64,000 bases of DNA from NCBI GenBank assembly GCA_021413975.1, contig JAIOPJ010000001.1:1-64000 (forward strand), read 5' to 3'. The DNA is from Gemmatimonadota bacterium. Its GTDB lineage: Bacteria; Gemmatimonadota; Gemmatimonadetes; Gemmatimonadales; Gemmatimonadaceae. Numbering within the stretch: the stretch's first letter is position 1; every line of letters begins with the position of its first letter. A program made the position numbers and the translations under genes. Below the pieces are notes generated by a model. The model made no database searches. It was given only the letters and a program-made list of their open reading frames with translations, and was not told the origin of the DNA. This document shows, piece by piece, positions 57,789-59,732 of the stretch.

Positions 57789-59732
57789 ATGGCCAAGACC
57801 AACGACGCCGCCGACTCCCATTACGACGCCTCCGGGATCCAGGTCCTCAAGGGCCTCGAGGCGGTGCGGAAGCGCCCCGGCATGTACATCGGCTCCACCT
57901 CGCACCGGGGCCTGCATCACCTCGTGTACGAGGTGGTCGACAACTCGATCGACGAAGCGCTCGCCGGCTTCTGCGACACCGTGAGCGTCGTGATCCATGC
58001 CGACAACTCGATCACCGTCGACGACAACGGCCGCGGCATCCCGGTCGACATCCACCCCGTGGAGAAGCTCCCCGGCGTCGAGCTCGCCCTGACCGTGCTG
58101 CATGCCGGCGGCAAGTTCGACAAGAACACCTACAAGGTGTCGGGCGGGCTGCACGGCGTGGGCGTGTCGGTGGTCAACGCCCTCTCGGTCGTGCTCAAGG
58201 TGTGGGTGAAGCGCGACGGGAAGGAGTACTACATGGACTTCGCCCGCGGCGACACGACGACCAAGCTCAAGGTCCTCGGCACCGTCAAGGCGAAGGAGAC
58301 GGGCACGAAGGTCTACTTCAAGCCCGATGACCAGATCTTCACCGAGCTCGAGTACGACTACTCCACGCTCGCCACGCGCCTCCGGGAACTCTCGTTCCTC
58401 AACAAGGGCGTGATGATCTCGCTCAAGGACGAGCGCGAGGGTCGCGAGAAGGAGGAGACCTTCCATGCGAAGGGCGGCCTGAAGGAGTTCGTCGCCTTCC
58501 TCAACGCCAAGCAGAAGCCGCTCCACCCCGAGATCCTCTACCTCGAGGGCGAGAAGGACGACATCGGGATCGAGGTCGCGCTGCAGTACAACGACGGCTA
58601 CAACGAGAACGTCTTCTCGTTCGTCAACAACATCAACACGCATGAGGGTGGCACCCACCTCACCGGCTTCAAGTCGGCCCTCACGAGCGTGATCAACAAG
58701 CATCTCGACAAGTCGTCGTTCGCCAAGAAGGACAAGGAGGTCAAGCTCTCCGGCGACGATGCGCGCGAAGGCCTCACGGCCGTGCTCTCGGTGAAGGTCC
58801 GCGAGCCGCAGTTCGAGGGGCAGACCAAGACCAAGCTCGGCAACTCCGAGGTCGAGGGCGCGGTCAAGACGGTGGTCAACGAGTGGCTCGCGACCTACCT
58901 CGAGGAGCACCCGCGCGTAGCGAACATCATCCTCGACAAGGCGCTCTCGGCGGCCCGTGCGCGCGAGGCCGCGCGCAAGGCGCGCGACCTCACCCGCAAG
59001 AAGTCGGCGCTCGACGTCGGCAACCTGCCGGGCAAGCTCGCCGACTGCTCGCTCTCCGATCCCGCCATGTGCGAGATCTATCTCGTTGAGGGCGACTCGG
59101 CCGGCGGCTCGGCCAAGCAGGGACGCGACCGCATGTTCCAGGCGATTTTGCCACTTCGTGGCAAAATATTGAACGTTGAAAAGGCGCGGATCGACAAGAT
59201 CCTCAGCAACGAGGAGATCCGCACGATCATCACGGCGATCGGCGCGGGCATCAAGGAGGAGTTCACGCTCGAGAACGTCCGGTACCACAAGATCATCATC
59301 ATGACCGACGCCGACGTGGACGGCGCGCACATCCGGACGCTCCTCCTCACCTTCTTCTTCCGCCAGATGCCGGCCCTGATCGACGCCGGCATGATCTACA
59401 TCGCGCAGCCGCCGCTCTTCCGCGTCGGCAAGGGGAAGGAGGAGTACTACGCCTACGACCTCGCCGAGCGCGACGTGATCATGAACCGGATGGGAGGCGC
59501 GGACGGCAAGACCAACCTCAACGTCCAGCGCTACAAGGGCCTCGGCGAGATGAACCCGGACCAGCTCTGGAAGACCACGATGGACCCCGAGACGCGCACC
59601 ATCCTCAAGGTCACGCAGGACGACGCCTTCCTCGCCAACGAGACCTTCCAGACGCTCATGGGCGACGAGGTGGAGCCGCGACGGCTCTTCATCGAGGCCA
59701 ACGCCAAGTTCGTGTCGAACCTCGACATCTGA
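57789..59732 (+). CDS. gyrB: DNA gyrase subunit B
   Basis: ATPase and TOPRIM subunit of DNA gyrase. 647 residues from the ATG at 57789; the frame continues upstream past the promoter, so the longer start is unlikely. GHKL ATPase: [70 protein letters not shown] and [14 protein letters not shown]. The tail ends [11 protein letters not shown]. Codons 453-464 (59145-59180) are strikingly AT-rich compared with the rest and include a perfect inverted repeat. Confidence 0.97.
59145..59180 (+). other. AT-rich codon island with perfect inverted repeat in gyrB
   Basis: Codons ATT TTG CCA CTT CGT GGC, then AAA ATA TTG AAC GTT GAA, encode [12 protein letters not shown] (453-464). All but two or three are codons that this gene otherwise avoids (ATC, CTC, CCG/CCC, CGC, AAG, GTC/GTG, GAG prevail). 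It holds ATTTTGCCAC (59145-59154), a TTC loop and GTGGCAAAAT (59158-59167), a perfect 10-bp inverted repeat. Confidence 0.85.

Follow-up and report, generated by a model that had tools for sequence, protein, structure and literature searches.

A short tract of gyrB was probably replaced once in this lineage by the homologous stretch of a lower-GC bacterium, a reading to which we assign a probability of roughly two in three, and the AT-rich patch left in the gene is most likely a silent short import and not a conserved regulatory element. The host gene (57789..59732, + strand) lies in the window, which is the whole stretch of 64,000 nucleotides analysed, and encodes a protein of 647 aa with Pfam matches to HATPase_c, DNA_gyraseB, Toprim and DNA_gyraseB_C. 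The AT-rich codon island occupies codons 453-464 (59145..59180, + strand), which fall within the Toprim match (residues 429-540).

Codon usage in the island departed clearly from that of the remaining gene. In order, the island codons are ATT TTG CCA CTT CGT GGC AAA ATA TTG AAC GTT GAA, and 8 of the 12 end in A or T as compared with 3.6% across the remainder of gyrB, where GC3 was 0.964. The initial annotation, which had described twelve AT-ending codons in a GC-rich gyrB, was thus right about the AT-rich island and overstated its extent, TTG (twice), GGC and AAC being G/C-ending exceptions. TTG is itself rare in this gene (2 of 62 Leu codons, both within the patch). Assuming independence of codons, the binomial probability of four or fewer GC-ending codons in 12 was 1.3e-9 per 12-codon window and about 8e-7 gene-wide. 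With 13 G+C in 36 bases, the island was the lowest-GC 36-mer of the 64 kb window, and no other complete 12-codon window in the 107 gyrB genes held so improbable an AT3 cluster; the runner-up, codons 19-30 of L007, sits close to the start of the gene, a region of elevated AT3 throughout the family. The codon island is a true feature of the given sequence and, within the sample, specific to this lineage.

The closest relative found (L004; 94% aa identity) differed from the window gyrB at 222 of 1,941 bases. Twelve of these differences sit in the 34 bp from 59147 to 59180 (+ strand), the minimal replaced tract measured from first to last difference, where they are spread over 10 of the 12 island codons and are all synonymous (12/12). 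The next differences outward lie at 59099 and 59213, leaving flanks of 47 bp upstream (59100-59146) and 32 bp downstream (59181-59212) identical to L004 and bounding the tract to at least 34 and at most 113 bp. Such sharp edges, with 12 differences in 34 bp between two unchanged flanks, are as expected for a short homologous replacement. At the tract positions where one gene has A/T and the other G/C, A/T was found 10 times in the window and never in L004; outside the tract the same count gave 34 for the window and 91 for L004, the window gene being the more GC-rich there. Raw density of differences was matched elsewhere, with up to 14 per 34 bp near 58175, amino acid changes included. Since the codons were rewritten yet every residue was kept, the patch has the look of a copy of some other gyrB. 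Copying from a homologue is indicated by synonymous-only, AT-directed and sharp-edged change in combination, and scattered point mutation is disfavoured because synonymous-only change within one tract would not be expected from it.

The relatives examined comprised 106 family members' gyrB genes (29, L004-L032, from a first search, plus 77, L059-L135, from a second), or 107 with the window. Of the 142 non-own genomes that matched in the second search, 104 are represented in the set (top scores together with same-genus partial genes), and two more, G002 and G026, entered through the first search; the remaining matched genomes, mostly lower-scoring or partial, and gyrB genes of other families were left out of the set. 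None of the island codons was AT-ending in 49 of the 107 genes, and the maximum outside the window was 6 (L118) vs. 8 in the window. In the 102 relatives whose alignment covered over 600 codons, island AT3 was ordinary (0.104 vs. 0.108 expected; z -0.5, 300th of 636 windows). Synonymous diversity at the island was the 186th lowest of 636, slightly under average. The unusual codons, whose persistence across species the initial annotation would have taken as support for selection on the DNA or RNA, did not persist. Because relatives use ordinary GC-rich codons at this place, an outcome named beforehand as speaking against it, a conserved function of the island is unsupported, and a conserved cis-acting element in gyrB is not supported.

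At up to three mismatches, the 42-mer of the patch was found only in the window's own genome and was absent from the 394 other genomes of the phylum (395 searched); L004 matched it at 30 of 42 bases. L079, a member of the family, has 7 of the 12 island codons in common with the window and 5 base differences in the 42, and L014, L077 and L125 differ from the 42-mer at 7 bases each. As these four genes lie close, part of the codon pattern could be within-family variation and not cross-phylum DNA. Within codons 453-461, rare codons of the window recurred in L014 (TTG, CCA, CGT), L077 (ATT, CCA, CGT) and L079 (ATT, TTG, CCA, CGT and TTG), and CCA and CGT co-occurred in 5 of the 8 CCA-bearing genes, window included.

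A 35-mer gave no exact match in genome_contigs, where records of the own or very near genomes were possibly left out. A search of the same collection with a 29-base pattern, three positions of which were ambiguous, gave 21 matches, all of them in frames encoding a gyrB-like motif that starts QA(I/V) behind DSAGG; by the encoded 14-residue peptide they split 20 vs. 1. Their loci have 28-52% GC and belong to Flavobacteriales, Clostridia, candidate phyla and others, and the best two of these low-GC matches were identical to the window 42-mer at 39 of 42 positions. Since the 21 were selected by the pattern, this likeness to the patch is no independent proof. Among the origins proposed in the initial annotation, gene conversion with an AT-richer donor has the best support, from the 12 synonymous differences in 34 bp and from these matches. 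Codon 458 is GGC in the window and in 88 of the 107 family genes (window counted) and in none of the 21 low-GC matches, and for this reason the patch is no clean copy of any sampled donor. The flanks of the 21 also differ from those of the window, and going outward from either edge no more than 8 contiguous bases are shared. The donor may have been a distant low-GC bacterium or an unsampled lower-GC relative.

Other sources of the tract were searched as well. In the own genome, about 7% of which is possibly missing, a 301-bp query returned itself and one 25-base match of 96% to a part of the query outside the patch, and both the 42-mer and gyrB occurred once. No phage donor was seen among 239 records, 4 of which covered at least 80% of an 81-base query; phage records among the matches listed (20) showed 76-81% identity with a best E of 5e-9, one further record falling in the 95-99% band. 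The 21-mer TTTTGCCACTTCGTGGCAAAA had no exact match in viral_contigs. Nor was a plasmid donor seen in 30 records, none covering 80% of a 44-base query (20 listed at E 2-8).

The perfect inverted repeat reported in the initial annotation, ATTTTGCCAC-TTC-GTGGCAAAAT, is indeed present inside gyrB (59145..59167, no strand assigned; 10/10 pairs). By the genetic code, the peptide ILPLRGKI dictates 5 of the 10 pairs (enumeration minimum 5), plus a sixth when codon 456 is CTN, and 288 of the 62,208 possible codings of this peptide (0.46%) give perfect repeats. Each of 29 relatives has 7-10 of the 10 pairs, L014 reaching 10, and the range over the 107 genes was 5-10. Most of the inverted repeat thus follows from ILPLRGKI, and there is no evidence of function. 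It could nevertheless belong to an element selected in this lineage, be it a hairpin, a protein site or a supercoiling-sensitive site, and the perfection of the repeat over 10 bp would fit such an element, as would the 45 of 107 gyrB genes with 9-10 of 10 pairs vs. about 18 expected from their own codon usage. Under this null, which takes each gene's own codon usage and leaves shared ancestry in the counts, 9 pairs were seen in 41 genes (17.4 expected) and 10 pairs in 4 (the window, L014, L088 and L089; 0.9 expected). We read the excess as a site-specific codon preference, by which it is only partly explained; at codon 454, CTG ranked 10th of 47 Leu sites and TTG 4th. Several results make a selected element improbable. 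Beside the ordinary AT3 and synonymous diversity of the island in the 102 relatives, third-base complementarity of the three wobble pairs ranked 53/618, 456/615 and 153/621 among pairs at equal spacing, and a covariation test found no compensatory changes above background at the hairpin wobble bases. The folding energy of the window 23-mer (-11.0 kcal/mol) was equalled or undercut in 10 of 29 relatives with mostly GC-rich codons, and the patch extends 13 bases beyond the repeat. No terminator-like or promoter-like site was found in 58900-59900, and across 58500-59800 Rfam returned nothing at gathering score. The suggestion of selection at the DNA or RNA level was therefore not borne out by the relatives' GC-rich codons, the synonymous diversity or the pairing, which lacked unusual covariation. 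A hairpin, terminator or RNA family as such was likewise rejected, with no terminator or Rfam match and a fold no stronger than in those 10 relatives.

An artefact of assembly or consensus, by which the contig would have received the conserved TOPRIM stretch from a different member of the community, is unlikely, even if the draft genome consists of 56 contigs at 92.7% completeness and the gyrB of G041 appears chimeric within the TOPRIM region, so that this conserved place may be prone to misassembly. The patch shows no N and no frame break, and it is flanked by the 47 and 32 bases identical to L004; two switches around 34 bp within long native flanks are harder for a k-mer assembly to produce, and the edge identity shared with the low-GC matches, if these were the source, is too short for a two-sided k-mer bridge. 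Synonymous drift accumulated on an older codon set common to L079, L014 and L077 would account for the nearness of these genes, which are 5 (L079) and 7 third-base changes away, and is hardly probable given that L004, the closest relative, lacks the patch codons, that the flanks have accumulated no change and that outside the patch the window gyrB is more GC-rich than L004. The initial annotation had also considered a tract co-converted by an intein or homing element that was later lost. GyrB inteins do occur in other bacteria and in archaea (PMC6390638, PMC9348778). However, full-length gyrB genes among the matches listed were all shorter than about 2.0 kb (1,941 bases in the window), and by coordinates none of these carried an intein-sized insert, even a mini-intein, so that such a scar is extremely improbable.

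Two gyrB loci of other genomes were irregular. In G041 (L035, about 2300-4085), the 3' end of gyrB turned foreign-looking after DADVDGAHI, other frames and N followed, and a native-looking 3' end returned; judged from the sequence, this gene is probably an assembly chimera. G020 (L034, about 1309-1523, - strand) carries a 215-bp degenerate partial gyrB copy (approximately codons 442-512), 88% identical to its own gyrB and located about 5.3 kb downstream of it.

For the homologous import favoured here, we infer a single event, a foreign donor, entry by transformation and a neutral outcome. Single-stranded foreign DNA, taken up for instance by transformation, would have annealed at the conserved stretch and been incorporated by copying or ligation, in the manner of micro-imports or short-patch recombination, so that homologous lower-GC gyrB DNA overwrote 34-113 bp of the gene. 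The donor would have encoded the same near-invariant peptide, because of which the protein remained unchanged and the patch could survive, probably as a neutral mosaic. DprA-type and ComEC-type genes are present in the genome, although presence alone does not show competence; since these genes are widespread (DprA in 11 and ComEC in 10 of 14 control genomes), they lend transformation weak support.

Known systems offer partial parallels. SPDIR is able to use unrelated DNA via microhomology. It resembles the present case in swapping a short segment with relaxed identity needs, and differs in that its source may be unrelated DNA whereas the source of the gyrB patch looks homologous. In Helicobacter pylori, natural transformation leaves micro-imports averaging 28 bp in the accounts cited (PMC4917963, PMC9426483), which are alike in the very short homologous replacement tract; donor and recipient diverge there by about 4.5%, whereas the putative donor of the gyrB patch would have differed from the recipient at about 12 of 34 bases. 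Transformation of Bacillus subtilis transfers segments of 20 to <100 bp, some under proposed recombination length limits (PMC13344027), and the likeness lies in these short mosaic transfers of less than 100 bp. As far as that source goes, many short segments of B. subtilis lie near others in the same transformant, whereas the 15 top-ranking AT3 clusters included no second one from the window gyrB, although a GC-rich import would escape this ranking. Acinetobacter baylyi takes up and integrates fragments of 20-120 bp (Overballe-Petersen 2013, per PMC11580795), so DNA of patch-like length can integrate, to judge from that summary. This was a laboratory experiment as summarised there, whereas the gyrB patch would be a natural cross-species event. 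The recipient species' own trpE was reportedly used in that laboratory work.

If confirmed by reads, the patch would be a clear natural case of silent micro-import in which the two bacteria differ greatly in base composition. Silent micro-imports are normally nearly traceless, and strong GC contrast within near-invariant peptides makes it possible to count them in one genome after another. More tentatively, and with less than even odds in our view, about 36 bp of the universal housekeeping gene gyrB may have been overwritten naturally across phyla by environmental low-GC DNA, silently for the protein; this would imply that distant micro-transfers may be common and visible only where base composition differs strongly. 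Codon islands and inverted repeats in highly conserved motifs require a peptide-aware null ahead of a regulatory reading.

A survey of 213 crudely called genes of the own genome (268,552 bases, made up of the window and 204,552 bases of stretches) contained four clusters with at least 8 AT-ending codons in 12, the gyrB island included. AT3 is 13-20% in the genes that hold the remaining three, one being Gly-rich, one apparently in a wrong reading frame and one in L140, and no clear second patch was seen in the surveyed genes. Codons 13-30 of gyrB showed strong AT-ending enrichment family-wide (z up to 19 for single codon windows), which is perhaps the usual start-proximal effect. Directly 3' of gyrB, at 59798-60426 of the window, a small gene pair resembles AbrB-type and VapC-type genes as read from the letters.
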